NCBI RefSeq assembly: GCF_014066305.1
Contig: NW_023501068.1
Coordinates: forward strand, 481,501 to 545,500
Length of the DNA stretch: 64,000 bases
Origin: Letharia columbiana
Taxonomy: Eukaryota > Ascomycota > Lecanoromycetes > Lecanorales > Parmeliaceae
Direction: 5' to 3'
Each line of letters begins with the position of its first letter. Position 1 is the first letter of the stretch. The notes under the pieces were generated by a model that had not been told where the DNA came from, searched no databases, and saw only the letters and a list, made by a program, of their open reading frames with translations. Below are positions 2,722 through 64,000 of this stretch, one piece after another. A program made the translations under genes and the position numbers.

Positions 2722-3707
2722 TCAAGTCAGCTCCACATGATAAACCTCCCTCTTCACCAACCCCTCCGCCCCATCCAACACTCCCACCAACCCCTCCCCC
2801 GCCTTCCCCTTCTGCGCCCCCCACCCCTCCCACCCCACCGTCCCCATCCACGCCCTCATCTCCCCTTCCAACCCCTCCACCTCCATACCCTCCACAACCC
2901 ACCCACCATGCACATCCCTCACCCCCTCCACCTCCCTCCCCCACCCTCGTCACGAATCCCTGCCATGTAGATTCCCACTTCTCCTTTTGCTCCGTCGTGA
3001 TGGCGAGGGGGAAAGTAGGCCATTACGACCTCGGTGACGGGGGCCTGTAGGGTCTTGGGCTGCGCGGGGTGGAAGAGGACGTGGATCGGGATCGGCGGGA
3101 CGGCGCAGAGGGAGAGCAGTTGGGCGCGGAAGGCCGGGAAGTGGGGCGTGTCGTAGAAGGAGAGGTGGTCTGCTTTGCTGTCCCAGTCTGGGGTTCATTC
3201 GCGTTGGTGTAAGCAGGCAGACCGACTGAGGGGGATAAAATAGGGGGCTGGGGTGATGAGGCAGGCTAGGTGCTAGGGAAATTGGCAGTCGAAAGGGTAC
3301 GGATGCTCATATCTTTCGACAAAATCAACTCCAGCGAGGATCTCCTTGCGCTGTTGAACGCTTTTTTTTTTTTTTTTTGGAAATGGACTAATCACTGACG
3401 AGACGGTCCTTCAAACTGATAACCAAACTCAAAAGATTTCAACTTCTCAAACAGCCACATCTTCTGACACCTTGCCTGGGGCGAAGAAAAAGGGGGGGAA
3501 GGAAAAGAGGCATTTACTAAGAAACATGCGGGCTTTGCTCCTATCCTCGACGACGCTACTGGTGTAAATGTCTCGGAAGCCGGGACATTTTTTCAGGGTG
3601 GAGATGGAGGATGCCCAGATGGCACCTTCGGGAGTGGAGGGGTCTTTGAGGTCGTACGGGGCTTTGAGGTCGATGATGCAGACTTCTGTGACCGGGATTT
3701 GGGACAT
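2722..3707 (-). CDS. ABM-like dimeric alpha/beta-barrel protein, one frameshift
   Basis: Exon 1 (3518-3707) starts at the ATG at 3707 (MSQIPVTEVCIIDLKAP). The donor is A|GTAAAT and exon 2 (2722-3187) follows CCCCAG, joining as RMFLNWDSKADHLSFYDTPH. Two antibiotic-biosynthesis-monooxygenase-like halves are visible; the first ends in the APVTEV/AYFPP strand and the second in REVYHVELT. The exons sum to 656 nt, one short of a full frame (about 218 aa). The frame change falls in a very G-rich tract on the coding strand near 2930-2965, so a missed G is the simplest explanation. The 330-bp intron is long for this genome and contains a 17-base T tract. Family function is often small-molecule oxidation or stress response, but the substrate cannot be read from sequence. 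Confidence 0.72.
3362..3378 (+). repeat. T17 homopolymer inside an intron
   Basis: Seventeen consecutive T on the + strand lie inside the 330-bp intron (3188-3517) of the ABM-like gene, reading as A17 in the transcript. Confidence 0.9.
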
Positions 3708-6472: not shown

Positions 6473-8770
6473 ATGTCTGGCGACGTGGATAAGAGATCGT
6501 CGCATTGGCGGTATGGGATCATATTCGACGCGGGTTCCTCTGGTACCCGTCTACATATCTACAGATGGCTCGACAGCGACAAGGCAAGAAAGGAAGCGGG
6601 AGTGAAGGAATTAGAGTCGCTGCCTGTATTGGAGACTAAGAGCAAATGGACAGAGAAGATACATCCTGGTATTGCGACGTTCGGAGAGAAGCCCGATCGT
6701 GTTGGGCCAGACCACCTGGAAAGCCTATATAAGAAAGCCCGCAAAGTCATTCCAAACGGTCTTGAGGAAGACACGCCAGTATTCCTGCTCGCCACGGCTG
6801 GCATGCGCTTGTTGCCTGAGAACCAGCGTAACGAACTTCTGCGGCAGGTTTGCTCCTACACTCGTTCAAACACCAAGTTCCAATTACCAGAATGCGATGT
6901 ACATATACAGGTCATCCCCGGCGAGGTCGAAGGTCTGTACGGATGGGTCGCCGCGAACTATCTGCTCGGAGGCTTTGACGCGCCGAAGGATCACGCACAT
7001 GGGAAAAACCATCATACATATGGCTTTCTCGACATGGGCGGCGCCTCTGCGCAAATTGCTTTCGCCCCAAATGCAACGGAAGCTGAGCGTCATGCGAATG
7101 ATCTCAAGCTGCTCCGGATGAGGACTATTGATGGGACAGCAGCGGAGTATCGAGTCTTCACCACCACGTGGCTCGGTTTTGGAGTCAATGAAGCCAGGAG
7201 GCGATACGTTGAAGCGTTGCAGAAGGCTAGTGGTGCCATTGATACGGAGGTCCTCCAAGATCCATGCCTTCCCGCCGGCTTAAGCGTTACTACCAAGGGG
7301 GATGTTTTCCTACCAGGGTCAAAGACAATCAATGGACAAACCCCTCATCTGAATGGGACTGGACAATTCGACAAGTGTTTGATGATGACGCTGCCTCTTT
7401 TGGAGAAAGACCATATCTGTGAGGATAACCCTTGTCTTCTCAACGGAGTACACGTCCCTGCCATCGATTTTGACGTCAACCACTTTGTTGGCGTCAGTGA
7501 GTACTGGCATACCACGCATGAGATATTCCAGGAAAGCCACAAAGACAAAGCATACGATTTCAATACATATCAACAGCGAGTCAGCGAGTTCTGTAGCCAG
7601 GATTGGGATATCATTCGCAAAGGGATAGACAAGCACGAGTGGGGGAAGAAGGTCGATGAGCAGACCGCTATCGAGGTGTGCTTCAAAGCTAGCTGGCTTA
7701 TCAACATCCTCCACGAAGGCATTGGAATCCCGAGAGTGGGATTGGAGGCAACTCCAGATAGCATGCACAATGGTACGATGAAGGTATTGGATAATGCAAA
7801 GGACAAGGGCTTTACAGCTTCTTTTCAAGCAGTCAACAAGATCGATAATACAGAAGTCAGCTGGACTCTTGGCAAAATGGTCCTATACGCATCCAGCCAG
7901 GTCCCTCCATTAAGAAACGACGCCCTTGCTGTTGGATTTGGTAGCAATATACCCGGTATCCCCGCAGATTTCCAATACGCCGGCTCCGCAGCGGTCCTCC
8001 GCACGGAGAACTCCACTTCTACGGAAGACCATTGGCACTCGAATCTTTTCCGCGCATCATCACCACGCCGCATACCTGGCTTCATTCTCTTCCTTTTCAT
8101 TCTCTCCATTGCGCTGTACCTCCTCTGCGGTCGTTCCCGCCGTCAACGTATCTATAGCAGGTTCGGCTCTTCACCGCGGCGTGGCCTCGGCTCACCACCA
8201 CGAAAGCGTGGACTATTCGGGGGCAAAGTCCCGTTTTGGCGCTCCAACACGAGTCTAGGCAACTACGAGCGCGTACTCGAAGAAGGGGCAAATGACAATT
8301 TCGAACTCGGTTCTGTGGACGACAGCGACGAACCTGAGACCTCAGACTCCTCCTCTGCGTCCCACGGAAGCAAGACATCGGGGTGGGCTACCCCTCGTAG
8401 TCGAAACAAAAACGGTCTTGATGGAAGAGACCCTTTTGATAACCTTGGCAGCGGTCAAGGTCTCGGCATTACTGGCAATCCTATGGATAGAAGTGGGTAC
8501 GTACAATTGGATTCAAAGGGAGTCCCCCCCGTTCTGTACCGATATTCTTGTCTCAAGAGATATTTACGGGGCGATCAACGCTTCTTACTTCTTAACTTTG
8601 TCTATGATTTGCCCCCAAGTACCAACGCTAATTCGAAAAATCTGGGCAGGTTGATCGGTCGTACTGAAAGTAAGGAACGCATAGCCGGCATGGCTGAGGG
8701 TAGAAAATCCAGGAGAGGCAGCCCAGCGAGGCCAAAGGGACTAGGATTGAAACCTTTGGTTGAGGATTGA
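6473..8770 (+). CDS. Golgi apyrase (GDA1/CD39 nucleoside phosphatase)
   Basis: The join of 6473-8496 and 8650-8770 gives 714 aa. Apyrase conserved regions appear in order: DAGSSGTR at about residue 19, LATAGMRLL, GEVEGLYGWVAANYLL and GFLDMGGASAQIAF. One membrane segment (FILFLFILSIALYLLCG) sits near residue 535, then a basic, Ser-rich cytosolic tail, as in yeast Ynd1-like Golgi apyrases. These hydrolyse nucleoside di- and triphosphates in the Golgi lumen and support glycosylation. The ATG at 6473 is the first in frame. The 153-bp intron (GTACGT...GGGCAG) is a multiple of three with no stop, so unspliced mRNA would add 51 residues; splicing restores a tail reading GRTESKERIAGMAEGRKS. A C-terminal membrane anchor without an N-terminal one fits the Ynd1 type. 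Confidence 0.9.
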   Translation: MSGDVDKRSSHWRYGIIFDAGSSGTRLHIYRWLDSDKARKEAGVKELESLPVLETKSKWTEKIHPGIATFGEKPDRVGPDHLESLYKKARKVIPNGLEEDTPVFLLATAGMRLLPENQRNELLRQVCSYTRSNTKFQLPECDVHIQVIPGEVEGLYGWVAANYLLGGFDAPKDHAHGKNHHTYGFLDMGGASAQIAFAPNATEAERHANDLKLLRMRTIDGTAAEYRVFTTTWLGFGVNEARRRYVEALQKASGAIDTEVLQDPCLPAGLSVTTKGDVFLPGSKTINGQTPHLNGTGQFDKCLMMTLPLLEKDHICEDNPCLLNGVHVPAIDFDVNHFVGVSEYWHTTHEIFQESHKDKAYDFNTYQQRVSEFCSQDWDIIRKGIDKHEWGKKVDEQTAIEVCFKASWLINILHEGIGIPRVGLEATPDSMHNGTMKVLDNAKDKGFTASFQAVNKIDNTEVSWTLGKMVLYASSQVPPLRNDALAVGFGSNIPGIPADFQYAGSAAVLRTENSTSTEDHWHSNLFRASSPRRIPGFILFLFILSIALYLLCGRSRRQRIYSRFGSSPRRGLGSPPRKRGLFGGKVPFWRSNTSLGNYERVLEEGANDNFELGSVDDSDEPETSDSSSASHGSKTSGWATPRSRNKNGLDGRDPFDNLGSGQGLGITGNPMDRSGYVQLDSKGVPPVLYRYSCLKRYLRGDQRFLLLNFVYDLPPSTNANSKNLGRLIGRTESKERIAGMAEGRKSRRGSPARPKGLGLKPLVED

Positions 8771-23299: not shown

Positions 23300-25177
23300 T
23301 TAGTTTTTCTTCGCCTCGGCCTCCTTCCTCTTCATCCTCATCGTCTTCCAGCGCATGAAATAGCACGCGAACGGGAACAACATTGTATTAATCGCACACC
23401 AAACGAACAAGACTCCGAAGTTGAGCCCGATCCTCGAATGCAAATCGAACAAGGTGCTCCGCGACGCTTCGACGATGTTGTGCAACGGCCACGCGTAGCC
23501 CCAGTAGTACCACTTCGGCGCCAAGTCCAGGGAGTAGAAAGCGGTCGACACGTTGGAGATGACCCAGAAGATAAGCCACATCGCCGTCCACGGCTGCCCG
23601 ATTGCCATTGCGACATTCTCGCAAGCGAGGCCGAGGGCGATCATGCCGATGAAATTGATCATCCAGTAGACGACGAACGTGCCTTTACCGTAAGCGTCGG
23701 GGTTGTTGGCGACCATCGTAGTCGGAGCAGTGGGGTTATCGAAGGGAATTTGGAAGGCGAGAGAGATGAAAGAGTAGGCTAGGGACATGAAGAAGTAAGC
23801 TAGGACTGTGCCGATCCAGCGGATGACAGATGAATTTCCAGAATTTGATGGTCGGGTGCCCTCCGGGTGTGACGAGCTTGGTGTAGATGGGCAGGAAGAA
23901 GGTGAAACTGAAGAAGGCGATGATGATGAGGTAGATGAGACCGATTGTGACTGCTGGGGTGGTGACGGGAGGGCCAAAGGGGCGGAGACTGAACATTGAG
24001 AAGCCGATTGCTGGGCTGAGTGCCTGCGGTGCCGCTTGTAGGTTTGTGATTGGGATGCTGGTGTTTTTGAGGACCATGCCCGTCCACATCTGGCCGAAGG
24101 TGGAAGTGATTTCCGTCTGCAGACTCGTAAGGGACGGAAGGATGTAGTCATAAACGGTATCTTGATCTCGAGCTTCAACCCAGATGGTTTGACAGGCCCC
24201 CAGAGGTTCATAACTGGCATTGCCCTGCTGTACAGCTTGTTGGAGGAGCGCTGTAGCGTTTGCATTGATGACGATTGCTGCCCATGCCTTGAAGTCATAC
24301 ACAGCTTGCCGGACGTTCATTGGGTCGTTGTCGAAGAAGGCTGGATCCATGGTGATGAAACCCAAATGGCCCCCGGATTGTCCAGACGATATCATTTTTT
24401 CGGTGGTTTGGGTGATCAAGGGACCAACAAGAGGCGTGACTCCCGTATATGGTGCTTGAGTGCCGTCGAAATCCACAACATACACGTCGAGCGAGGACAA
24501 GTTTTGTTCCACGTTGAACAATACCGCCCAGTACATACTCATGACAAGGAGGATAAAGACACAGAGAATCAAAGCTGCCAAAGAGTCAGCGCGAAGTTTT
24601 CCAACGAGTGGGGCAATGCTCATTTACTGGTTCTTGCCCACAATCCCAGCAGCTGCAGTCTCAATTTTGCGAGTTCCGAATGCCAGAAACCAACCACGGG
24701 CGGCGAACCTCGCTCACCCCCCTTTTCTCCCCCATCTCTCTGCTTTTCGTCATGGAGAGAGGCATTGCTGTATCGCTGCTGTCCATGACCCTGTCCTTGA
24801 TATCCTAGGGTATGATGTGAATCCGGCGAACTATCATGACGATCGCCACTCAAGGAGCGGTCCAGGTTGCGACAATGCTCACACTCCCTGCCAGCCATGT
24901 GGTTGAAGCAAACAGCAATGAGCTGATGAGGCTGATACGAAGGCTCTGGAGAAGAGGGATGATAATAGCTGGCTGATCTGCTGGAGTGACGTTTATTATT
25001 TGCCTGGATGAGAGGCAAGGCATCGCGAGCATCTTGGGCCCTTTGTGCGGAATAATGTTCGAGACGCCTATGACTTGTCGATTGCATCACTCTATCCGAA
25101 AGTTGGCGAACCATGCTAGTGCCGGATCTGGTCCCGGAGTTAGACCGGGTCGGATTAGGATAGTACGGGTATGACAT
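23300..25177 (-). CDS. SNG1-family (DUF3533) membrane protein, one frameshift
   Basis: Exon 1 (24628-25177) starts at the ATG at 25177 (MSYPYYPNPTRSNSG); exon 2 is 23300-24574 after a 53-bp intron. The N-terminus is polar and probably cytosolic. The first membrane segment is LILCVFILLVMSMYWAVLF, then the diagnostic DVYVVDFDG. A large extracytoplasmic loop leads to a cluster of membrane segments (IGLIYLIIIAFFSFTFFLP; VLAYFFMSLAYSFISLAFQ; TMLFPFACYFM). The family includes the yeast nitrosoguanidine-resistance protein Sng1. The exons sum to 1,825 nt, one too many: the frame breaks near 23838, and losing one T in ATCTGTC would read into VIRWIGTVLAYFF. This indel is not in a homopolymer, so real inactivation is possible here. 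Expected length is about 607 aa. Confidence 0.78.
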
Positions 25178-30822: not shown

Positions 30823-32954
30823 TTAAAAGTGGTTGAAATTCTGCCCTCCTGGGTGGTGTTGAGGTGCGACGTAGTAGTTCTGATAAGGATGGATCGGCTG
30901 GCCAAAGTCCGCCCTGGCATACATAGGATTTGGTATACCACTCGGTATCGACTTTGACGGTGGTGCAGGAGGTAATGATGTTGTAGATGCCTGCTGCTGG
31001 AATCCATAGTTCAGTGGCTGCTGGAGACTGTCCTGGCCGCTCCAACCCCATTTTTTGATCAGTCCTTCAATCACGAAATTGATGCCCCAGCCGGTTTCTT
31101 TATGTATCTTGTTGACAATCGTAAGAACCTCTTCTTGCTCGGGCCGAGAGATCAGGCATTCACCAGCGTGATGAATGGAACGGAGTGCTACACTTGCAAC
31201 ACCCCTGATGGCCGTTAGCAGGATGCCGAGGAGGAGGTCTACCTGGTGGGAATGGTACCTATCCTTGACATGGGCTATTATGCCGCAAAGCGTCTGGGCG
31301 TTCTGCATTTGCATTTCCTGCATATCTTGTACTTCTTGTTGGCTTACAGATATCATGGGATTTGTTTGTGCCAGGCAGATGAGCGCTGTGTGATAGAACA
31401 TTCGAGCAATGACAGTGGCTCGTTTAATCAACCTATACCGTCAGTCCGTACCCAAAAGTCATTTCAGTATATCAATTCTCACCAGACTTCAGGAAACAAT
31501 GACTTCGAGGTTTGCTGAAACGGGTGCGAACGACCCAGCGGTTGCATTGTGCGAGGAACACTATTATCCCAAGCATCACACCAATCTTTCAATATCTTCC
31601 ACTCTTCGTATCGGTTCTGGATCCGCATATGGTCCTGTGGTGGGTCCGAGGAGCGAGGTGTCATCAGCGCGCGGAAATTTGCTACCTTACCCAATATCCA
31701 CAATATCCGGTATGTCCAGATTTCTTCGCGTCCAGGACCTGTAGGCCCGGAGAAATCCATGTCAAGACCCCAGTCGTTCGGATTCCATGCTACCTGCCAA
31801 TTGAAATGAAGACAGCTGAGTAACTCCATGCCCACATTTAGCCAAAAGCACGCGGCTCCGACTCCGACCGAGGTAGCATTCCAGCCGCACTCTTTGATCA
31901 GGGCACGAGCGCCAGCAATATGATTCATCCTTTGAAGTGGTTTCTCGCACATGATCTCGTAAACATTCAGGATCACAGCCGTCGTTGCGCAGATGACAGT
32001 GTCTCGGTATGGATTTTGCAATTGCCGGAGCAGCAATCTGGTTGCGGAGTCGTAGTAATGCAGAGCCTTGTCTTCCTGATATGCTGGGTTCACCAGGACT
32101 AGATGCCGAGCTCCGCAAGCAAGGAAAGCGTTCAACAACATCGGTTCGCTCAAGGAATCGAAGGGCAAAAGTCGGGAGAACTGGACATTCAGTCAGTTTG
32201 TTCCTCGGCGCGCCAAAGTAGATCCCCTTACATGCTTGTAAGGATCCATGCTATCCATCCATATCCCAACTTCTTCAACGAAGACTTGCATGAACAGCAG
32301 CTCCTCCGGATCAGTCAAAACTTCTCGCGTTTCGCTTGGCGGAGTCAACGTCTGCTTGGTATTGTTGTATGAGGATACAGAGGTGGCACCAATGGTATGA
32401 CTAGAAAAGGTCGAGTCCGAATTGGTCGAGCCATGTCTTTGATGCTGATCTCGACCCTGATCTGGCATTGGCTGCATCGACGCTGCATATGCCTCCACTC
32501 CACCCGGCTGGATTTGCTGGGAAGGTAATTGCTGATGGGCAAGCACAGGAGCTTGTATCATGGGATCGGCGAAATCGAACGTCGATTCCTCCTTGGGCAC
32601 CACGTCTCCTTCAGCCTCTATCTCTATTGCGGCATAGCGACTGAGACCCCCTCGATATTCTGAAGCAATTTCTCGCGACTCGTCTTGAAATATCACGTCC
32701 CAGTCTTCCGTCGGAGGAGTGATTGGCGGATTCCTGATGGTGGTATCGATGAAGTTCAAACGAACTCCTCGTTTGCATTCTCGGTTCGATTTTTTGCAAT
32801 TTTGGCAGTCAGGAACACCTTCATCGCATTTGAGATGTCGTTCTCTGCAAGTCAAACAGCCAGTCCGTACCCTTTTCGGCTTGGCTGCGGCGGCGGCGGC
32901 GGCGGCAGCTGCAACATCTGCCGGCACTGTTGATGGGCCAGTCTTGCTTGCCAT
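30823..32954 (-). CDS. Zn(II)2Cys6 transcription factor
   Basis: Exons 32232-32954, 31483-32180 and 30823-31432 sum to 677 codons (676 aa). The ATG at 32954 is followed by a run of ten alanines, then basic KPKRVRTG and the binuclear cluster CLTCRERHLKC / CQNCKKSNREC (Cys 33, 36, 43, 50, 53, 60). A Gln/Ser-rich middle leads to the fungal transcription-factor homology region (FSRLLPFDSLSEPMLLNAFL; ACGARHLVLVNPAYQEDKAL). The C-terminus is rich in Pro, Gln and Tyr. Such proteins bind CGG-type DNA triplets in the nucleus; the target genes cannot be told from sequence. Gene content nearby is housekeeping, so no cluster role is suggested. Confidence 0.88.
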
Positions 32955-34795
32955 TGGATCGTATTGGGTGCTATGGCCTCGGGCCTGAGCAGCCCTGGCT
33001 GCGCAAGCCAAGAGGGGGTCACTTCAGCAGGGTTCACAGTCTTGACGCGATCTTCGGGAGCGATGTGATTGCGGATTCGTCTCCAAAGGCGTACAGGAAT
33101 GACGGAAAAGCTTAGCAGCAAGCAGACTTTGTGATCCGAAGGACAATTTTGTCGAGGTATGGCAGGAACAATGGAACGGTCCAGAAGAAAACGCCTTCAG
33201 AAGAAGGGATGAGAAGTATGGGCGTCCTGGCGCGAGGTCGTTGCCGATGGTTTTCTCTGATATTGTTACCGTCCGAATTATGGTCACAGAATGCGAATCG
33301 TAATGATTGTCGTTGCCCATTCACTCCGCGTGTGGGCCCAGCATGCAACGCGACATGCGAAGTCTCCTTTCAGTCGCAATTGATATATGAGAGGGGGTCA
33401 ACGGTGAGGTTGGTTGGAGAATGGAGGATCGAGGGTACCAGTGGTGGAGTGAGTTGCAACAGGGAAGGGGAAGGGGAGGTCTTAGCGAAGATCGCCTTTA
33501 CTTTAAAATTTTGGCTTGCGGACTCGTCCCGAACTTCCAGTTGAGAAGAGCGATGAGGATCTGGGCCTGGTAGGGGGGGCACCCTTTTGACAGGGGCTTA
33601 GGGGCTTTGATGGGTTGATGGCGCAGCGTTGGGATGCGACCGGGCGGTTGTTTCTTCCTTTGAATTTTCGGCTTTGGAGGGATCCTGGTGCTCTCAACTC
33701 CGTTTGGTCAACTCTTTTGCTGTCGATTTGAACCAGACACGAGGCAAAGCTTAAAATTGAATTTTGGAGCAGGGTTCTTCCCACGGTCCCACCATCAAAA
33801 TTCCTTTCTTGCTAAAGTAGGTACTTTATAATTCCGAACCAATGACACCGGACTCCAAAGACTTCACTTCAATACGTGGAGAAAGATGGAGAAGAGGAAG
33901 AAGAGAAAAGAAAAGATGCAGGATGGAAGATGAACGTTCTGCTGCCCCTCGGCCTTACTCTGGAGTAAATACATTCGCCGAGGAGGTCGGTAAAGACGTC
34001 AGCGGCGGTTCTAGACTTTTAGACTTTCTTTCCGGCATTGAACCTGGTCCAGCAGATTGATTGGCAGGGCAGAAATCAACATTGTACTTAGGTACTACTG
34101 CTGCACCGTAGAGTATCTCTCTCTCTCTCGGCTTTCCTTTGTCCTACCGGTAACACTACAATAAATAATATTTTAAAGTACCTACCTATAATTTCTGAAT
34201 GTTGACACATTTACCTGATTAGTATCAAACCTCAATGTTGTCCCGGCCACCAAACATGAGCCCCCCCGCCATTCGTCAAACGTCTAGCAATAAGTCGGAT
34301 CTTCACAATGCCGCTCCGAGGCATGCCAACGTATCACTGCCAAAATCCCTCTGCTCTGCCGAGGTCAAAGGTCAAGTCCGTTTTTGTAGCATCAAAGATA
34401 TGCCATCATACCCTCCAATCTTCTGCTTCCGCCTCCACAGTTGCTGTAAATTCTCTGTTGAAGCTCTTCCGCTTCAATTTTCTCGACCGGTACTTGTACT
34501 TTGGGGGCTGAGACCAAGCCCTACAAAAACACGTTTCTTCGCTGCGCAAAGACCAATCTCTTCTCCCGCTTTACCTACCTTGGCCCACCAACTGCCAAAG
34601 TTCATGGGTGCCGAACCGCACAACCCCCCAGACTGCAGCTCTTTTGCTTCTGGTATTTCGGTCAAAACACCAAGCTGTCCCCCCCTCCGGAGGCAGACTT
34701 ATCGCTCTGCCGCTCTCTTCTTTCATCATATATATCAACCTTCCTGCATTAGGCACCTCTTCTTTCTCTAACAGCCTATCTTTCCCCTACCCAAC
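32955..34795. other. Long divergent intergenic region
   Basis: 1.84 kb between the transcription-factor gene (minus) and asa1 (plus). A CT-rich tract sits near 34115. A 178-codon open frame at 34235-34771 has biased, non-domain composition and is not called. A long promoter is common for fungal regulatory genes. Confidence 0.5.
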
Positions 34796-46827: not shown

Positions 46828-48068
46828 TCATTCCACCATCCCGCCATGCTCATGAAGGAAGCCAGGATGTCCCGGGATCTTCCCAGTGTTCTTGAACTCG
46901 GCCTCTGGGAACGAAGGACCTAAGCGGCGATCGCGACCCTCAGTCAGCTTGAGATACGTTCCACGAGCGAGCTTGGACATACCTAAGGTTGGATGGACAA
47001 GGATCGTTTCGTCGAAAATGTTAAAGGCGTGGTCTTCGGCCCACGCATCAATGCTCTCCCAGTTCTTACATTCGTGTTGGATGTCGAAGTTCGGCTTTGG
47101 TGCTCGATCGTTTGAAACCCAGTCGAAAGTCAGGAGGGAGACATCGGCTTTGCACACTATACACCATCTTCGTTAATTTCTTTCCTGCTGCTGGTTGGAT
47201 ATTTTGTGCGTACTGAGGTTTTGACGAAGATTATCAATGCAATGGTCTGCGTCTGCGTTAGACTTGGAGACCTTCAGAGCCAGCCCGACGGCTTACCAAT
47301 GTGTATGGGATTTGTGGGCTTGTTGATACGGTAGTAGTCGTGATAGAGCATCTGTCGAAGGAATTTCTAATGCTGGTTAGCCAAGGCATCCATCTGCCAT
47401 TATTCGTTACGGCTCACCAGGCAGTGTAGCTGGTGGTAGACATCTGTTAAGCCATATCATCAGCCACAGATCCACATTATGGCCCCTGTGTTGAGAATAC
47501 AAGCTGATGCATGGCTCTCAAACTCACCAGGAATTGCGTAGTATCCTGACCCATCTCCAAGCGGGACCGAGGTACGATTGATCTTCTGAAGGTCGTCCGC
47601 AGAGACGCGCACGTTGGAGTTCACAAATAGTTGGTGCCATGCGTCGTCTAATTCTGGGCTGGGGGGGCCTTTGAATGGATTCTTCGATTTCAACGTAGCG
47701 TGGACCATCTTCTTCTCGGGGATAAGGGCTTCATTGAGCGGTGCTTGTCATAGGTCATGGAGGTCAGCCGAATGCTCACATCGTTTTCTGCGGATACACT
47801 GCCTTGGGTTTTGATGCTCACAAAAGACTAGGTTCATCCCGGGCGTGTTAGGACGAACGCTGTTGTATGATAGAAAGAGAAATCCCAATGTGTACACAAA
47901 TATCAGAATGATGTGAAATGTGGGCATTGCGTAGGGCGAGCGGCAGTAGGTTCTGCGATTTCGCCCTTGAAATTCTTCCTGGTGACATTCATGCTTTAGA
48001 AGCCTCTCTTCATCATTTGTGTACCTCTCTTCAGATGAAGAGCGCCTGTTGCTTTTGAAATTATCCAT
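46828..48068 (-). CDS. UstYa-family (DUF3328) RiPP oxidase
   Basis: Six exons (47822-48068, 47528-47743, 47418-47443, 47297-47366, 47214-47246, 46828-47156) sum to exactly 307 codons (306 aa). A short cytosolic N-terminus precedes one membrane segment (FHIILIFVYTLGFLFLSY, residues 51-68). The luminal domain has the family stretch FKGPPSPELDDAW, NRTSVPLGDGSGYYA, the first metal-type motif HQLHC (158-162), LYHDYY, and the second motif DHCID (187-191), followed by MCKADVSLLTFDW. UstYa proteins catalyse oxidative cyclisation of Tyr-containing RiPP cores (dikaritins such as ustiloxin). Exons of 26 and 33 nt carry the two motifs, which makes automatic annotation likely to fail. The divergent precursor gene 1.9 kb away is the probable substrate source. 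Some UstYa proteins serve other pathways, so the pairing is inferred. Confidence 0.9.
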
Positions 48069-49959
48069 TCGAGCGCTCTTTGGGCTTGCGGTTTGAATGT
48101 TTGCTCTCTGTGTGATGTTGTTAGAGGGCAAAGTCTGACTGGGCGGGTTTTTTGGAGGACTACCACCAAGATGAATGCCCCACTGTCCAATTTGAGCAGC
48201 TCAGACTCAGCTCTCTGGAATCGAGATACTCTCGGCTTTGCTCAAGATGGATTGGGGGGTCGTAATTGCTCGGTCGCTTACACTGTCGATCAATAATTGT
48301 GTTATTACTATGCAGCAGCAGTTCGACTAGCTGCGCAAATCCCCCACCTGGCAAAAGTGGGTCCTTATTTATACTCGAGCAGGCAATGATGTCCAGCATG
48401 CATTAGATCAAGGTCTTTCAGAATCTACTGTTTCGTGCGGGGCTGCCAAGCACCAACAGTGGGGCGGTGTGCAGCCAATGTGGAGGCCTCAAGAAGGTCC
48501 TGAAAAGGACATTCGCTCTCTCTGGCAGGTCGTCGCCTCTGATTGATCCGCGTTTTCCCCGTCAGGTTTCGATATGCACATCTCGGTTTCGTTTGTTGGA
48601 ACACTCATCCCTCTTTCCCCTACGAATCCTTCCGGAGGACGACTAGATGCGGCATGACGCACTGTTAGTCTCTCGAACCTAGCTCTGAAGCAGGTATCAA
48701 AATCAAGAGACCCCTCGAGACGTGGAGACTTCATCAGACCCTGCTTAACACCGTTGAGTATAGCCAATCCAAATTTTAACGTCACGCGGACTCTCTAGCC
48801 AGCATTATCGAAATTTCTATATGCAACTAAGGTACCTCAGATACCTACGTTATACTGTCTGGATCGCACCTTGCCCACAGACTAAGTCGGATATGGCACG
48901 TCCCGTGGATTAGCGGCCGACTTCTGCACTATGACAAGCATCCTTTTCTTTTCATGCACAGTAGAAACGGAGATATTATTCTCGCATGAATCGATCACAT
49001 GTCGACGTTGTCGTCGATTGAAATTACTAGCGTATACTCGTTTCATGCGGGGAAAAGGATTCCTTCGGAGAATTTTTAAGAGCGAGCGCGGGTGTAAGTC
49101 CTTAATTAATCCTCCCGACCGTGCGGCACGGATCTACCCAGCAATTGAACTGCTCACTGAGGGTACCATAATCGAGTTTGATTGGTGGGTACGTCCGTGC
49201 CGGACTGCCGAGAGAAAAGACTAGTTGCCCGCCCGAGTATAAAGATCTGACGTAAGCTGAGCTCGGTCCTTCATGAATCGATCAAGGTACATCTCGGCGT
49301 CGCCCCCAATTGAATTTGTTTACGTAAATTTTCCAAGGAATTCTGTTCGATGTCCGATGGAGATACCGATTTTATATTCAATAACACTTTTCAAGTATTC
49401 AGAAGCAACTTACCCAGCCAATCATCGTTTAGAACTCATTTGTGCGTGTAGTTTTGGTGGGGTATTAAGCGAGACAACACTGGCTCGTACGTGGTATCAC
49501 TAGTAGCCGGACTTCTCCCACATAAGGCTAAGGTAGTGATCGACTGGCTGGTACTCCAAGCAGGGTCCTTGATCAGACCATCGATAGTGCGTGCTTGTTG
49601 CAGATGCAGGCGGAGTCCATGAGCGAGAGAGAAAAAGAGCTACATCGAAGCGTTCTGCTAGTTGGAGAAGCATTACCCTGCTTCTGCGATTCATGGAGTC
49701 CTCAAATCTCTGGTTTGGCGATTCATGAACTCTCTCACCTGCATCTGTGACGCAGTTGGGACCGACGAAGACCGCTGCACCCGTCTGGAACTAGCGGGTT
49801 GTTGAAGTATATATTGCAAGTGGATCGGCCGTCTGCTATACAACAGCAGCAGTCGGTCCAGGAAGCTTGGATATCACCTATCACTTCACTTCACTACCAC
49901 TTCCAAATCCTCAAGTCTGATCCAACAACCATCTTCACATCCATCCCAAGTTCAACAGA
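48069..49959. promoter_or_regulatory. Intergenic region between the UstYa-like oxidase and the RiPP precursor
   Basis: 1.9 kb separates the divergent starts at 48068 and 49960 and should carry both promoters. A 98-codon minus frame at 48489-48785 lacks an ATG at its start and shows no domain; nothing else is called. Confidence 0.45.
49807..49813 (+). promoter_or_regulatory. TATA-like element of the RiPP precursor
   Basis: TATATAT lies about 147 bp upstream of the precursor ATG. It is followed by a C/T- and CA-rich leader (TATCACTTCACTTCACTACC) typical of highly expressed fungal genes. The position fits a core promoter but is not proven. Confidence 0.4.
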
Positions 49960-50513
49960 ATGCTCATCAAAGCTTCCCTCCTGGCCCTCTGGCTCGCCTC
50001 CCTGGCAGCCTCTGTTGTCATTCCAAGTCCATAAGCCTAGCCAACCCTCGTGTGATCGTCACCGACTGACCGACAGTCCAGATTCCACACATGATGTTGC
50101 TGCTTCCCACGAGGCCAAGACCCGAGGTGCCCGACGGTGATCTGTACGAGTACAAGAGCAAGAAAGACAAACGCGAGAACCCCGACGGCGACCTATACGA
50201 GTACAAGGCCAAACGCGAGGAGCCCGACGGTGATCTGTACGAGTACAAGAAAGACAAACGCGAGAACCCCGACGGCGACCTATACGAGTACAAGGCCAAA
50301 CGCGAGGAGCCCGACGGTGACCTGTACGAGTACAAGAAGGCCAAACGCGACGACCCCGACGGTGACCTGTACGAGTACAAGAAGGCCAAACGCGAGGACC
50401 CCGACAGCGACCTGTACGAGTACAAAGCCAAACGCGAGAACCCCGACGGCGACCTCTACGAATACAAGCGTACTTCCAAAATCGACAAACGTGGCGACCT
50501 CTACAACCACTAA
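49960..50513 (+). CDS. Secreted kexin-processed RiPP precursor, dikaritin/UstA type
   Basis: The join of 49960-50026 and 50077-50513 gives 167 aa in exact frame; the 50-bp intron has a CTGAC branch and ends CGACAG. Residues 1-18 are a clear signal peptide (MLIKASLLALWLASLAAS). From residue 39 eight repeats of 14-19 residues follow, each carrying PDGDLYEYK (PDSDLYEYK in repeat 7) and closing with Lys-Arg before the next acidic residue. The protein ends GDLYNH after the last KR. KR sites suit cutting by the Golgi protease Kex2, releasing several near-identical Tyr-Glu-Tyr peptides. UstA-type precursors have this design, and a UstYa-family oxidase lies close by. The peptide core is not one I recognise. 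An alternative acceptor five bases downstream reads a plausible hydrophilic segment but hits a stop before the repeats. Confidence 0.88.
50124..50492 (+). repeat. Eight tandem core-peptide repeats of the RiPP precursor
   Basis: Units are 50124-50174, 50175-50216, 50217-50261, 50262-50303, 50304-50348, 50349-50393, 50394-50435 and 50436-50492. Units 2+3 and 4+5 form a nearly perfect 87-bp higher-order duplication (one GAT/GAC difference in the cores). Variation is confined to the two residues before Pro, one Gly/Ser, and the linker before Lys-Arg. Confidence 0.95.
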
Positions 50514-51765: not shown

Positions 51766-53514
51766 TCACACCAGATCTATCTGCTGCATAGGACTCTGCG
51801 CAGCCGCAACTGCTTCGCCATCCATGATTCCGTGGATGTAACATGTTCCAATGACCTCATACGCGTTGCCTTTCGGTCGTAGGAGGACAGGCACGAAACA
51901 ACCATAGAGCACGCTTATTATATCACCTTCCTTTCCAGCTTTGGGAATCCATCCCATGCGACCGCTTTCCGACATGCAAAAGCGGCGTTCTCTAGCTATG
52001 TCAATCACCTTTGTTTCTACATTGGTAACACGGACCAGGTCATAGCCATCCCAAGTTGAATCAGATTCTAATTCAGGATCGAACTGCTGCATGAACTCCC
52101 AGTAGCTGTTGAAATCGTTTTCATGATGTTGACGTAGTCTGCAGTTGTCTGTCCAATTTCCCCCGAGCAGAGTCCGCCAGAATGCCTGTTTGCGTATAGG
52201 TTCGGGAGCCTTCCAGCACGGCATACTTGTCAATTGTAATGCTTCTCGGAGTACATGAAGCTGGTCCATAGCACCTTCTGCTAGAAATTTGTGCAAATCG
52301 CCAATCCTAACTGTGACTTCCAGGCTACGGCTCGCTGATCTTGCAATCTTTTCCAATAGTAGTCCTGGGGCTGACAATGTATTATTTCGCACAGAGAGCC
52401 TTTTGGACTCATCGTAAGGACCGCAGGCTTCGAAGGGATCCTCCACAGTTTCAACCATGCTAGGAATGTCTTTTGAACGCGCGAGATTTGGCACCCAGGA
52501 TGGTGTTCCCAATGCGTCTTCCGAATAAACGCATAGAGATAGCACGTTTAAAGCTTCGTATTCAGCGATCCAAGCGACCGTGAAATCTTGGTATACTTTG
52601 CCTACTGCGATACGGTAGTCTGGCTGATATGGTAAGAGGGCACTATCACTAGCGATGGCAATGAGGCTGTAGAGTTTATCTCGACGATCTGTGGCCTGAC
52701 GTGATCGAGTCATTGCGGCGAGTTGAAGCAGGGTAGTGGGTCTATTGCGAAATTGTTTTATAACGGTGACCTGACCCATCGCTAGATGAGATGACATGTT
52801 TGAGAGCCGGAATCCAATGCCGAAGTCAAGCACTAGTTTAACGAAATTCGCCACGTCTTCGTAAGGGATAGTTCGGTCACCAGCAAAAATTGTTGCCTCA
52901 GAAGCACAAAGGACTTCCTGAAACGTCCAAGCTCGTCGGAACCAACTGTTACCGAAAAAAAGATTTAAAGAAGACAAGACCTCGTCTGTAAGTTTAGAAT
53001 ATAAGTCTTTGATGAGACTCCTCACAGCATGGGGATCACCAAGTACAGGGCCAGGCGGATATTCGAATTTCTCAAGGGCGTACGAAATGTAGTCAAAAGC
53101 TGCACCGTACAAGTCGCCATCCTCTCCCAGCCAGATAAATAGTCGTAAGCTTTCAGAGTAAATCTTCCGCATCAGTAAGACCTGCTGGGACCGTTCATCG
53201 AGATCGTCTTGGTTGATGCATATGGCATCAGCCCACACAGTCATGGGTTGATCCACTTGTCGGATTGTTTGCAGGGCGGCATGAAGGTTCTCGGTCACGT
53301 ATAGTATACCACTGATATTGTCCGGGCCTGTACAGGAAACCTTGCATGGAAATTTTGCGTCTCCCCAGACGTACGAGATTGTTGTATAGATTGTACCATC
53401 ACCCGGTTGCACTTCTCGCAGGGTGCAGTGCATATCGCTCCCGTAGGTACCAGGTTCAACAGCCAAGACCCTGTTAGTGCTCGCAAACAGTGAGGCCATA
53501 CAGAAACAACGCAT
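51766..53514 (-). CDS. HET-domain (heterokaryon incompatibility) protein
   Basis: One long exon encodes about 582 aa from the ATG at 53514. HET-domain blocks are in order: YTTISYVWGD, MTVWADAICINQDDLDERSQ, VLLMRKIYSESLRLFIWLGE, and later NSWFRRAWTFQEVLCASEAT. A downstream region shared by many HET proteins (SLIAIASDSALLPYQPDY; VLSLCVYSEDALGTPSWVP) is present, and the C-terminus is intact. HET proteins trigger cell death after fusion of unlike hyphae or act in related immunity-like responses. The N-terminus is uncertain: a good acceptor (GCACTAACAG) lies just inside the first codons, so an upstream exon may replace the first 17 residues. Confidence 0.85.
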   Translation of the reverse strand: MRCFCMASLFASTNRVLAVEPGTYGSDMHCTLREVQPGDGTIYTTISYVWGDAKFPCKVSCTGPDNISGILYVTENLHAALQTIRQVDQPMTVWADAICINQDDLDERSQQVLLMRKIYSESLRLFIWLGEDGDLYGAAFDYISYALEKFEYPPGPVLGDPHAVRSLIKDLYSKLTDEVLSSLNLFFGNSWFRRAWTFQEVLCASEATIFAGDRTIPYEDVANFVKLVLDFGIGFRLSNMSSHLAMGQVTVIKQFRNRPTTLLQLAAMTRSRQATDRRDKLYSLIAIASDSALLPYQPDYRIAVGKVYQDFTVAWIAEYEALNVLSLCVYSEDALGTPSWVPNLARSKDIPSMVETVEDPFEACGPYDESKRLSVRNNTLSAPGLLLEKIARSASRSLEVTVRIGDLHKFLAEGAMDQLHVLREALQLTSMPCWKAPEPIRKQAFWRTLLGGNWTDNCRLRQHHENDFNSYWEFMQQFDPELESDSTWDGYDLVRVTNVETKVIDIARERRFCMSESGRMGWIPKAGKEGDIISVLYGCFVPVLLRPKGNAYEVIGTCYIHGIMDGEAVAAAQSPMQQIDLV

Positions 53515-54589
53515 GCACAAGTAGATATGTAGATATATGATTGGGCATATCCAACACTGGGGCAGCTAAGAGCTTTTTGGACATCTGGACTGAGCAGATA
53601 GCCCGAAAAAGGCCCCAGCGCTAGAAAAACTCCCATGTCTGAGCGACATGCCCTGGAGTGAAATGAAGCTATACATAGGTGTGGGTGGGAGGGAGAACAA
53701 TAATATGGCTCTGAAGAGAACAATTCGAATGAAGAGCCCACTCCTTGTGCCCGGCATACAAATAGTACTCGCCATGCCCACCTGTCTCCCTAATATCGCA
53801 TATCGCATAGTCGCATAATGATGAAACGGCTGATCAAACAGCCACCAACGCTATGGCCTCATAATGGACCCACTAACCCACAGTCCAACTGTTAGTATTA
53901 GAAGGCGATTCGAGAGGCTTGTATACATACTTCCTGCTTGCAGCAAGAGACTGGTCCTGCATTGCTCGTCCCGAAGCATTAATTGCCTAAAGGCTGACGG
54001 GTTGAAACTCAAAGGTTATGACCAACAGCGCCTTGATGACACGTGCACGCGTTCTGTGATCCATGTTGGTGTGGTCGAAGAAAGGAAACGGCTGCCACCT
54101 CTAAACAAAGACGCCAGTCATACCGCGGCCACGCATACGGTATGATGGAAAGGTGAAGACTTACAGCAAGGCGAGAGATAAGCTAATCGGAGCTAGAATG
54201 ATAGCTCCGGAGCCAGCCACTCATCCAATCGGCTTTTGGGACAACCTGGCTAAATCCGGCAGCCAATTCCCAGATTAAAATCGAGAATATGCTTCATACT
54301 TATCATTGAAGGTACCATGCACAATACGTCGCCCCACCTATGACATAGGGGCGGATACTAGAACTGATGATGTTCTTTGTAACACTTACCCTTTATACGC
54401 CCGGCCTCTCATATTTCTACAAAGGTCTGTAGTGCCTTCTCTGTCGGTCGCCACCTGCAAGGAATCTCTTGCAAAATCTCACCCAAACCCGGACCGGAGT
54501 GATAACACCTCCCTAGCTGTTACGAGCGTACCCTACATCTCCCTTAACACACCATCCAGCCCTATTGCCTATTAGAGTCTAGCGTATCT
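53515..54589. other. Intergenic, upstream region of the HET gene
   Basis: No gene recognised apart from a possible unplaced first exon of the HET gene. It includes the unmutated copy of a duplicated segment (53692-53892) and runs into the AT-rich block. Confidence 0.5.
53692..53892 (+). repeat. Unmutated copy of a direct duplication
   Basis: This segment can be aligned by eye with 55866-56062. The other copy differs mainly by C to T and G to A changes, and the last ~40 bases (CCTCATAATGGACCCACTAA and onward) are almost identical. Confidence 0.8.
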
Positions 54590-54719
54590 TAATAAAGACA
54601 TCTATTACTACTTAATATCTTCTATCTATATAGTTATTCGATATCTAATTAACTTATTTAATATATCTATATCTATATTATATTTATATCGATTCTAATA
54701 CTATAATTAAATTATCTTA

Positions 54720-55100
54720 TTAATATATATAATAGAATAAGATAGAGCTAAGCTTAAAAATCTTAAATTTATATATATAGTTAATTATAAATTTATTAGA
54801 TCTACGCTTTTTAATTAGATCGACTAAGTTATCGTAAATAAATAAATTAGTATTCGCAACTATTAAAATCTCTTACTCTACTTTTAACTCTTTAATAACT
54901 TTACTATTTTCTATTAAAATTTTAAGATTTTTTTTTTAAATTATAGAGCGAAGATTACGCTTTTTAATAATCTAAAAATTATAATATTTAATCTTATAAT
55001 TATTAAAAGATAAGAATCTTAAATCTTACTTATTAAAGTTCTTTTTGCTTATTAAAGTTCGCTTATTAAAGTTTACTCGACAGTTCTAATTAAAAAATAG
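54720..55100 (+). repeat. Dispersed RIP repeat, copy A
   Basis: Shares long runs (AGATAGAGCTAAGCTTAAAA; TTAATTAGATCGACTAAGTT) with copies at about 60915-61300 and 62285-62650 in the same orientation. Confidence 0.8.
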
Positions 55101-55574
55101 ATATATATTATTTAATTTTAGAATAACTTTTTTATTTTCTATTAAAATTTTAATTTTTTTTTTTTAAATTTTAGAATATAATATAAGCTTTTAGAAAAAA
55201 AATAAACTATTAAATTTAATCTTATAAATATTTTAAAATAAAGAGTTTTAATATCGCTTATTAAAAACTTATATACTCTTTTAAGAATACTCTTTAATAT
55301 AAGCTTAGATAGTCGAGTGATAATAATTTTAATAATTTTCGAAATTATTTCTCTTCGTCCTCGATTCGAATTCATAAATCTTTCTCTCTAAAAAATCGTA
55401 AAATCGTAAAATCGTAAAAATCGTAAAACTAATAAAAAGTATAAAAATTATAAAAATAAAAATATTAATAATTAATATAAGTAAACTATAATAGATATTA
55501 AAATTAACTTCTTATTAATTAAATCTAAATTAATTTAAAATTAATTAACTCTCTAGAAATCTATTATAAATATA

Positions 55575-55810
55575 TCTTCTCTTTTTTCTATTTTAAATTT
55601 TACTTTATTTTTTTTTTCAATTATAGAACTTATTTTACGCTTTCTAATAATTTAAGATTTATAAAATTCGATCTTATAGTTCTAAGTAAATCTTAAATTA
55701 AAGTATTTTTACTCTTTAAGAGTCGAATTTAATCTCGAAATTAGATTTAAAAATTAATTACTTTTTATAAATTTAATTTATAAGTTTAAACTTATTTATA
55801 ATAGTTAAAT
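55575..55810 (+). repeat. Dispersed RIP repeat with an inverted partner
   Basis: The reverse complement of about 60240-60480 matches this segment, including TCAATTATAGAACTTATTTT and TTTAATTTATAAGTTTAAAC. Confidence 0.78.
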
Positions 55811-55865
55811 AGTATATTTATAATAGTTAAATAAAGATTAATATATATAAATTTAATTATAAAAA

Positions 55866-56062
55866 AAAGAATAATAATATAGCTTTAAAAGAGAATAATT
55901 TAAATAAAGAATTTGTTATTAGTATAGTAACTATATAAATAGTACTCGCTATAAATATCTATCTCTCTATTATTATATATCGCATATTGATGGAACGATT
56001 AATTAAATAATTACACAAACTATAGCCTCATAATGGACCCACTAACCCACAGTTCCACTGTT
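55866..56062 (+). repeat. RIP-mutated copy of the 53692-53892 segment
   Basis: Aligns to the clean copy with mostly C to T and G to A substitutions; mutation fades toward the right border, where the sequence is almost identical up to 56062. Confidence 0.8.
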
Positions 56063-59627: not shown

Positions 59628-60239
59628 CTCTATGTAATAAATTAATATAATAATAATAAGCTTTTATTACTATTAAGACTCTATAAGAAAATATTTAAAT
59701 TACTATTTTTTAAAATTAATTTATCTATTAAATATTTAATTTATCTATTCTTATCTTTATTTTTATTCTCTATTATTTCTTTTAATATTTTAATATTTTC
59801 TATCTTTTCTATATCTCTTTATCTTCTTATATTTAAATATATTTTAAATTATCTTATTATTATTATTATAATTATAAGCGATACTTTTTATAATATTTAA
59901 TTATCTTTAAATAAAGTTAGATATAATATTTTTCTATTATTTTAATAAACTTATAATACTTATCTATATTAAATTATATTCTTTTTTCTATTACTTTCTC
60001 TTATTAAGATTATTATTAATAATATAAATTAATAGCTTATTAAATAATATTAAATAATATACTTTTTTAACTTTTATAATAGTATTAAATTAATATTTTT
60101 AATCTTAGTTTAAATTTAATAAGATTAAGAGTATATATAATTATATTATATATTAAAATTATATTATATTAATATTAATTTTATAATAATAATATTTTAA
60201 CTTTAAATAGCTTTTAATATTATAATTTTAATAGCTATT

Positions 60240-60480
60240 ATTTTATTTATTTATAAGTTTAAACTTATAAATTAAATTTATAAAAGTAATCTATTTTTAT
60301 ATCTAATTTCGAGATTAAAATTCGACTCTCGAAGAGTGAAAATACTTTAATTTAAGATTTACTTAGAATAATAAGAATTAAGATTAAATTTTATAAATCT
60401 TAAATTATTAGAAAGTGTAAAATAAGTTCTATAATTGAAAATAATAATAGTAAAGTTTAATAGAAAAAAGAAGTTATATA
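60240..60480 (-). repeat. Inverted copy of the 55575-55810 repeat
   Basis: Reverse-complement match to the left block across about 235 bases, with RIP-type differences. Confidence 0.78.
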
Positions 60481-60914
60481 AATAATAGATTTCTAAATAA
60501 CGTATAAATAAGAGTAAAAACGAATAGAAGAATTTCTTTAATCGTATTTAATATAAATAATTTCTAATTATATCTTACTCTACGCTTTAAGATTTATAGA
60601 GTTTATCTCCTTCGAAGACGCTTTCGAATATCTCTTATACTAAAAGACTTAAATACTTAATACGCTTTAGAGATATTCGACTCGAAGTAGAAGTGTAAAT
60701 ATAGTCTAGAGATATCTATACTTTACGCTATAAATAAAAATACCTCTACTTAAATCTCTATAGAGACTTTAAAGAAATAATTTCTAATAAATATTTATTA
60801 TATCTATAACTAACTTACTTAAATAAACTATTATAATAAGTATAAATCTTTATTAAATTATATTTTTAAGTAATAGTAAAGTATCGAATTATACTTTTTT
60901 TCTAAATATAATTT

Positions 60915-61300
60915 AATATTAATATATATAAAAGAATAAGATAAAGTTAAATTAGAAAATCTTAAATTTATATATATAGCTAATTATAAATTTAGAGTTA
61001 TTATATCTTTTAACTAGACTAGCTAACTTATCGCGAATAAATAAATTAGCGTATCATAATTATTAAAATCTCGCCCTTCCGCGTCTCTCTTATTAAAAAA
61101 ATAGATATATATTATTAATATATAGAATAACTTTTTTATTTTCTATTAAATTTTAGACATTTTTTTAAAATTTTAAAGCGCTATTTATGCTTTTCGAATT
61201 TATAAGAATTTCAAAATTTAGTCTTATAATTATTAAAGCGTAAGAAATTCAAATATCGCTTATTAAAGTTCGCTCGATAGTCGAATAGCTCTAATTAGAT
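60915..61300 (+). repeat. Dispersed RIP repeat, copy B
   Basis: Aligns with copies A (54720-55100) and C (62285-62650), sharing TCTTAAATTTATATATATAG and GCGAATAAATAAATTAGCG. Confidence 0.75.
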
Positions 61301-61450
61301 ATATATTATTTAATTCTAGAATAACTCTTTTATTTTCTATTAAAATTTTAAGATTTTTTTTCAAATTATAGAACGAAATATAGACTTTTAGAAAAAAAAA
61401 AATTATTAAATTTAGTGCTATAACTATTAAAGTATAAGAAATTTAAATAT

Positions 61451-61500
61451 CGCTTATTAAAGTTCGCTTATTAAAGATCGCTTATTAAAGATCGCTTATC
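61451..61500 (+). repeat. 14-bp tandem repeat
   Basis: CGCTTATTAAAGTT / CGCTTATTAAAGAT is present about 3.5 times; shorter versions occur at about 55020-55080 and 62600-62630, at the same place within the dispersed repeat. Confidence 0.8.
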
Positions 61501-62284
61501 TACTTACTCGATAGTTCTAATTAAAAAAATAATTATAAATTTAATTTATAGATCTTTACTCGTAGATATATAATCTAATAAGAATTTATACTTTTAAGAT
61601 ATAATTCGATAATATACTCTTATATTTTTATTCTCTAAACTATAAAATTCTTATAAAATTCTATTTTATCTTATATTTTCATATCTCTTATTAAAAAAAT
61701 AAGATATAAATTTATAAATTATTATTTCTCGAAGTATAAAAATATAAGTTATTATTTCTTAAAATATAAAAATATAAAATATTAATAACTCGTAGATATA
61801 GCTATCTCGATATTTATATATAAGAGTTTTATTAATTATTATATAATAAGATAGTATTAAGAAATTATTATAATTTAACTTATATATATATATAATATAA
61901 AAGATATTAATTATTCTATATAGTTTATAAGTATATATATATACGACGCTAAGTCTACGCTAGTAACTCTATAAGTATCTCTAAGATATCTTATAATAAT
62001 AATCTATAAAAAATAGAGAAATATTATATTTTATAGCAAGAAGTATATATATATGATTTTTTAAACGTCGAAAAGATATAAAGATATTAGATTAATTAGT
62101 AATATATATTTCGTAAATTCTTCTATCGTAATAAAAGTCTTTCGAATAGTATTGAAGTAAGATATTAGACGATTTCAATTCGTCTAAATATATATTATTC
62201 GATATTCTTCTATAGAGATTTAATTAACTATAATAATTTAACTACGATCGACGTAATAGAATCTTCTCTTATAACGTTATTATA

Positions 62285-62650
62285 GTAATATTAATATATA
62301 TAAAAAAATAAGATAGAGCTAAGCTTAAAAATCTTAAATTTATATATATAGCTAATTATAAATTTAGAGTTACTACGCTCTTTAATTAGATCGACTAAGT
62401 TATCGCGGATAAATAAATCAGCGTCCGCAACTATTAAAATCTCTTACTCTACTTTTAATTATTTAATAACTTTACTATTTTCTATTAAAATTTTAAGATT
62501 TTTTTTTTTAAATTATAGATCGCAATTTACACTTTTAAGAAATAAGAAAATTATGAAATTTAATCTCATAGTTCTTTAAGGGTAAGAAATTCAAATAATA
62601 CTTATTAAAGATCGCTTATTAAATTCGCTCGACAGCCCTAATCAAAAAAA
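62285..62650 (+). repeat. Dispersed RIP repeat, copy C
   Basis: The copy nearest to copy A in sequence, sharing AGATAGAGCTAAGCTTAAAA and CTATTAAAATCTCTTACTCT. Confidence 0.78.
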
Positions 62651-62708
62651 ATGGTTATGAATTTAATTTATAGATCTTTATTTATATATACTCGATAGTA
62701 TTTAATAT

Positions 62709-63400
62709 CTAATAATACTCGATTTAAAATTCGATAAGTTCGGCGTAATATTAAAATATAAGTATTATTTTTAATTTTACTATATATCTATCTAGATAAG
62801 ATATTATACTATATCGAGACTCTATAATATAATAAAATATTATAAAGAATAGCCTAGTTATTATCTCGAATTAAATCTTTTTAAAAATACGAAGAGAGAT
62901 AGAAATTCAGTTAAGAAAAAGACTATTATATCTTCTATATTAGGTCTATTAATACTATAAACGCTTATCTCATTATAGTAATAATAGTAAGATAAAGAAA
63001 GATCTACTTTATAATAGTAGCGAGTTTTATCATAGACTTTCCTATAGACTTTATTATAGACTTTACTAGAGACTTTATAATAGTAATAATAGCGAAATAA
63101 AAGAGATAAAAGATATAAGAAGATAGTTAAAGAAGATATAATAGAAGAAGAGATAGTAAAAGAAGACGTAGTAGAAGAAGACGAGATAGAAGAAAAGATA
63201 GCGACAATTTTTTTATAAATCGATAGATCGATAAGGTTTAAAAAACGATAAATTAAGTTCTTAGATATATTAATATTACTAGCAATAAAAGTTTAAATAT
63301 TATTCTTTATAATTATATCGAGTTATTATAGAATTTTAATAAAAGATAAATTTTTTAATATTACGTCGAACTTATCGAATTTTAAATCGAATATTATTAG
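62709..63400. mobile_element. Short RIP-mutated DNA transposon with terminal inverted repeats
   Basis: Positions 62709-62753 and 63356-63400 are inverted repeats of 45 bases with two differences, enclosing about 600 bp with no reading frame. The ends match the unmutated terminus at 59530-59627 apart from a deletion and RIP-type changes. Size and lack of a transposase suggest a non-autonomous (MITE-like) element. Confidence 0.7.
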
Positions 63401-64000
63401 ATATCGAGTACTTTCGAATATATACGAATACTCGTATTCTATTAATATAATATTATCTAGATATATAAAGATAGTAAGCTAAATTATAGTAATATTCTTC
63501 GCTTACTAAGTAATAATTTAATATGAAATCGTAGAGAGTATATAACGTGGGATCTTAAAGAGCTAAGTCGTATTCATAATAATAATAATCTTATTTTCGC
63601 TTACTTTCTTCGTAACGTTCTTCATATTTATCTACTATAGTACTTTCTTCTCTTACTAAGTATTAGATTAATATAAGATTATAGAGAGTAGATCTATTAT
63701 ATTACTACTACTAACTATCTCTATAGTTATCTTCGTACTATATTATATTTTCTCTTATAGAATATTAGATTAAGTAACTAATTAAGTAAATCTAAATCGA
63801 GCTTCTAATACTTCTAGTCTTATATATATAAATCTTATTATTTTTATTATTTTTATTATTTATTTCTTAAGTAAGACGAGTAGAGTATTATCTAATTAGC
63901 TAACTTATTATTTCTACTACTCTTTTATAATATTCGAAGTTATTATAATATCGATAAATCTAGTAAAAGAATCGATAGAATAATATTAAAAGATATTTCA

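Follow-up and report, generated by a model that had tools for sequence, protein, structure and literature searches.

A probable dikaritin-type RiPP locus with a repeated Tyr-Glu-Tyr core in Letharia columbiana

A divergent gene pair of Letharia columbiana, a wolf lichen fungus of the Parmeliaceae, is probably a dikaritin-type (UstYa-dependent) RiPP locus with one oxidase, since a kexin-site repeat precursor together with a full UstYa oxidase is the published anatomy of such loci. The pair lies in the window, a stretch of 64,000 nucleotides at positions 481501-545500 of contig C33; the genome searched was the 52.2 Mb assembly of this species. ORF translation and the gene model place the precursor on the plus strand from 49960 and the UstYa/DUF3328 gene on the minus strand at 48068-46828. 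The start codons are 1.9 kb apart, and these coordinates agree with the divergent arrangement of the original prediction. The intergenic stretch, 48069-49959 by the gene coordinates and flanked by both start codons, presumably holds both promoters. The two UstYa matches on contig C33 are both exons of one gene, leaving a single UstYa gene there. A locus of oxidase and repeat precursor is a further example of a kind already known, because a DUF3328 neighbour is recorded for 1758 of the 7878 KEPs in the kingdom-wide KEP survey (PMC7329392). In that survey the frequency of DUF3328 genes peaks adjacent to KEP genes, and Y is present in 65.6% of the repeats that neighbour a DUF3328 gene, compared with 38.2% of those that do not (PMC7329392).

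The precursor and its repeats

Pattern matching and translation located eight copies of PD(G/S)DLYEYK at 50130-50468 on the plus strand, spaced mostly at 42 or 45 nt. The original prediction of eight KR-bounded cores held for the eight in-frame copies and for the KR within a few residues 3' of each (8/8); upstream, KR precedes seven of the eight, and the first core is without a dibasic site in the frame of the 50-nt-intron model described below. A 27-base degenerate core pattern matched eight times in the 52 Mb genome, always inside the precursor array, while its reversed control gave no match in the same sequence. The array is beyond chance expectation. Six sites vary among the eight copies, five at synonymous third positions and one changing G to S. 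Random single changes to the core would be synonymous in 16 of 81 cases (10 of 27 for transitions), giving a binomial chance of about 0.0015 for the synonymous excess and 0.03 for transitions, both calculated by hand and rough, as the copies share ancestry. The cores thus appear to vary in a pattern of purifying change that fits a coding repeat.

Exon 1 of the precursor (49960-50026, plus strand) encodes a signal-peptide-like N terminus, MLIKASLLALWLASLAASVVIP, judged by eye from the translation, in line with the signal peptide predicted earlier. The candidate intron that best fits the original model is a 50-nt GT-AG intron at 50027-50076 on the plus strand with a weak GTCCAT donor. Exon 2 (50077-50513, plus strand) would then comprise a short pro-region, the eight cores, a degenerate last unit GDLYNH and the stop codon at 50511-50513. 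The intron search found at least three GT-AG introns that leave the repeats open. With a signal peptide (judged by eye) and at least three similar repeats between Kex2 sites, the precursor fits the KEP class. Pfam placed no family above its cut-off on the precursor (a YqzH match fell below it). A fungal alpha-type mating pheromone precursor was considered and rejected, as a Pfam mating-factor match was absent.

The core had not been recognised when the locus was predicted, and that stands: DLYEYK was not found in the literature searched, with an earlier listing possible in the KEP survey's supplementary tables, which lay outside that search, and the searches found the core in one other protein (P0001). 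P0001 was the sole protein at E<=0.001 among 4302 candidates in the precursor search (E 1.9e-18). An unspliced ORF of 178 aa, it has three cores and shares its tail with the window precursor. Its upstream part closely matches the window's conceptual translation, so that the two DNAs would have to be alike. The pro-region of P0001 runs in frame into the repeats, with RR just before the first core; because the window's equivalent sits in another frame, the N-terminal model of the precursor is unsettled. Of the exact spliced frame originally claimed, the joining of signal and repeats by GT-AG introns is retained and the N-terminal part becomes tentative. Either a different 3' splice site may be used in the window precursor, or its allele or sequence may be altered. 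A repeat-only alignment of three rows, searched up to E 10, returned P0001 alone among 7827 candidates. When P0001 was scanned against genome contigs and viral contigs, 75 and 9 pattern stretches were obtained, respectively, and no relative was confirmed among them. For other fungi that have UstYa relatives, neither the E<=0.001 search nor the repeat-only search found a precursor counterpart.

The UstYa enzyme and its neighbours

Comparison with homologues gave a 285-aa model of the UstYa/DUF3328 gene at 46828-48068 on the minus strand, with seven exons: 48068-47822, 47743-47528, 47443-47418, 47366-47297, 47246-47214, 47156-46983 and 46919-46828. The need for a multi-exon model had been anticipated. 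The exact frame proposed for it has to be revised: it read through an in-frame 63-nt intron near the 3' end (46982-46920, minus strand) and so gave 306 aa instead of 285. We take this stretch to be an intron because HPxLG joins PS(F/Y)P directly in eight of nine fetched homologues, the annotated protein included. The exception, P0024 (Epichloe festucae C2857_004664), is a UstYa protein with C-terminal repeats like AEPDRHQSYLKERSR, and is either an enzyme-precursor fusion or a merged gene model. The suggestion that annotation might miss the UstYa gene was not upheld, as it is already annotated as HO173_007882 (238 aa), which equals the last 238 residues of our model. The longer start is favoured since P0003 and P0004 (284 aa) span 100% of the query; P0003, from a 1946-base contig, could be a transcript rather than genomic.

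The enzyme is intact, as predicted, with a Pfam UstYa match of E 5.8e-57 for the 306-aa form (intron retained), and the expected HQLHC and DHCID motifs are present as HQLHC and HIDHCID. Forty-two homologues were found among 421 candidates. The nearest after its own record are one at 69%, one from Usnea florida at 70% and one from Letrouitia at 60%, followed by proteins of Talaromyces, Aspergillus and Penicillium at 54-60% (P0006-P0011). Across the 42 aligned rows the first HxxHC motif retains its two His and its Cys in 34, 33 and 33 rows and the second motif in 37, 39 and 39, the exceptions being mostly gaps. An AlphaFold model of the annotated 238-aa form (pLDDT 80.8, pTM 0.62) puts the motifs on neighbouring helices, 108-123 and 136-152. 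In copper-dependent CctR the HxxHC(x)nHxxHC motif is located at a four-helix dimer interface and binds two coppers, and the predicted pair of adjacent helices resembles the arrangement reported there (PMC12435403). No solved relative was found by sequence at E<=1, nor a PDB fold match at E<=0.001.

Next to the precursor lies an open HET-domain ORF of 599 residues (51769-53565, minus strand; PF06985, E 2.3e-26). An open P450 ORF (57579-58865, minus strand; PF00067, E 8.5e-63) is 7 kb from the precursor, between two AT-rich blocks, and nothing ties it to the pathway. The other Pfam matches in the window were Zn2Cys6 (32196-33023), DUF3533 (23739-24623), a DEAD helicase and, below threshold, hemerythrin, and neither these nor the HET-domain ORF could be linked to the precursor-UstYa pair. 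A scan of 18 selected ORFs of the window, which split genes could escape, showed no tyrosinase, methyltransferase, transporter or peptidase. The AT-rich blocks, at about 54600-56000 and 59650-64000, have 16-25% GC in 2-kb windows, and one copy of the 5.8S/rDNA, on contig C7 (L017), is strongly A+T-shifted; both would fit repeat-induced point mutation.

Repeat candidates at other UstYa regions

The 35 exon-level UstYa matches in the genome were grouped into 17 regions, namely 16 loci of 10 kb and the window. Repeat candidates were taken from two scans, one of them TRF, followed by inspection, with signal-peptide-like starts judged by eye. KR-bounded repeat candidates with such a start were present in 6 of the 17 regions, counting the window; the other five lie no more than about 2.5 kb from UstYa matches. 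L018 carries the repeat DxDAxYDH (2814-3139, plus strand), convergent with its UstYa match, and L028 carries ADDEPGAPGIW (3072-2915, minus strand; found by TRF) on the same strand as its match. Divergent arrangements at 1.4-2.4 kb were found in four of the six: the window, L021 (DYxYPFKTYP, 7745-7980, plus strand; found by TRF, with an array that changes frame), L025 (DADAAYGVY, ORF from 7260, plus strand, with an array that decays) and L032 (ADADEAWGGG, 2570-2433, minus strand). Trp cores occur in two of the six (ADDEPGAPGIWSVEKR, ADADEAWGGGTEKR). In the three loci tried, L018, L028 and L032, signal peptide and repeats could be joined by a GT-AG intron, that of L018 having a poor donor.

KR-bounded repeats were found in none of five other 10-kb loci, a small and weak control in which three loci are AT-rich, and in none of six 10-kb blocks of the window outside the array. 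The reversed-sequence control was positive in 3 of 16 loci, which counts against the specificity of the scan; it was dropped as a null because reversal preserves tandem repeats, and the L018 array was mirrored there. Repeat-scan matches in L020 and L027, and those on the second strand of the window and of L032, were discarded because they were low-complexity or mirror frames. The first scan missed L021, L028 and L030, all three of which were found by TRF. L030 has SLDYVKPREADAEAE(P)EHM repeats near its UstYa match (7280-7674, plus strand), with EAEA spacers and a frame change inside the array; it was excluded from the six since its repeats are without dibasic sites. The Kex2 P-domain had one match in the genome, on contig C4.

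Interpretation of the locus

Under the current definition of dikaritins, in which DUF3328 is class-defining, the pair appears to fit the class: the enzyme has two HxxHC motifs, and a secreted precursor with eight cores and KR sites (signal judged by eye) starts 1.9 kb away. An older definition in five parts (Ding et al., cited in PMC12048977) calls for more than one DUF3328 gene and for a tyrosinase, methyltransferase, transporter or peptidase in the cluster; with one DUF3328 gene on contig C33, the pair falls outside it. In the pathway that we propose, the signal peptide would take the precursor into the secretory pathway, where Kex2 would cleave after each linker KR to give about eight near-identical (E/D)x-PD(G/S)DLYEYK peptides, whose short basic tail would probably be trimmed by carboxypeptidases. 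UstYa, presumably anchored in the membrane with the copper domain facing the lumen, would oxidise the tyrosines of Y-E-Y, most likely giving a side-chain ring. The joint action of the two genes, the cross-link, the trimming and the order of steps are what we infer from this anatomy.

Several points count against the dikaritin-type reading: the precursor depends on an intron whose donor is poor, its pro-region frame is at odds with P0001, the sole relative, the searches gave no precursor for UstYa relatives in other fungi, the control with other 10-kb loci is weak, and the 18 scanned ORFs showed neither tyrosinase nor methyltransferase. A doubtful though by no means negligible variant is that the locus is of dikaritin type and the precursor is not fully read, signal and repeats being out of frame through allele decay or a small sequence error. 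The frame difference from P0001 would suit this, as would the frame changes in the L021 and L030 arrays and the decay of L025; Nanopore MinION was used for wolf lichen long-read genomes (PMC10512270), presumably including this assembly. Against it, at least three GT-AG introns still connect the signal peptide with the repeats and core variation is mostly synonymous. We regard it as unlikely that UstYa hydroxylates, halogenates or dehydrogenates the core and forms no ring. DUF3328 members do perform halogenation and hydroxylation as well as macrocyclisation (PMC12435403), but known Tyr-containing dikaritins are cyclised via Tyr ether bonds (PMC7329392), and by analogy a ring would be expected here. 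That the precursor yields linear, unmodified secreted peptides while UstYa acts on another substrate seems improbable in view of the divergent 1.9 kb pair, the Tyr-rich core and the further UstYa-repeat pairs in the genome, even though 78% of KEPs (6120/7878) are without a DUF3328 neighbour (PMC7329392).

A dikaritin-type locus with one oxidase can be set beside several described systems. The asperipin-2a core is FYYTGY, and its locus includes a reductase and a transporter, neither of which was seen among the window ORFs scanned. The Letharia core, PD(G/S)DLYEYK, differs from it, and AprA/AprY are likened to our pair by description, not by sequence. The asperipin-2a locus (AprY) shares with ours one DUF3328 oxidase and a Kex2-processed multi-Tyr repeat precursor (PMC7329392, PMC12048977). 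Ustiloxin and phomopsin loci also combine a UstYa family enzyme with a KR-site repeat precursor, but have two and five DUF3328 genes, respectively, plus tyrosinase (PMC7329392), compared to one UstYa gene on the Letharia contig. Dikaritin clusters of Venturia inaequalis, a different fungus, have a signal peptide, kexin-site tandem repeats and a DUF3328 neighbour (PMC9632046), a likeness again of description, not sequence. Parmeliaceae RiPP clans R1 and R2, from the same lichen family, have UstY homologues too; R1 has two UstY genes, tyrosinase and methyltransferase, and in R2 the UstY gene is accompanied by GNAT acetyltransferases (PMC12048977), none of these accompanying genes being seen at the Letharia locus. 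According to this 2025 survey, RiPP clusters make up about 17% of lichen-fungus clusters, and no repeated precursor was found in its two conserved clans, R1 and R2; its main text does not mention Letharia (PMC12048977). Our literature search found nothing joining Letharia and UstYa.

It is possible, if somewhat short of probable, that Letharia uses several precursor-oxidase pairs to make a set of peptides modified by UstYa enzymes on Tyr and Trp cores, in which this locus gives a new Tyr-Glu-Tyr (i, i+2) side-chain ring via a single copper oxidase. If true, the precursor of a lichen dikaritin would be known. What the locus adds is a concrete precursor candidate from a lichen fungus, with a testable core, where the survey found no repeated precursor in its two clans. 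From the core sequence and the five further candidate pairs, peptide masses can be predicted and searched for in lichen extracts, and the Letharia cores may offer new Tyr and Trp substrates for probing UstYa chemistry.
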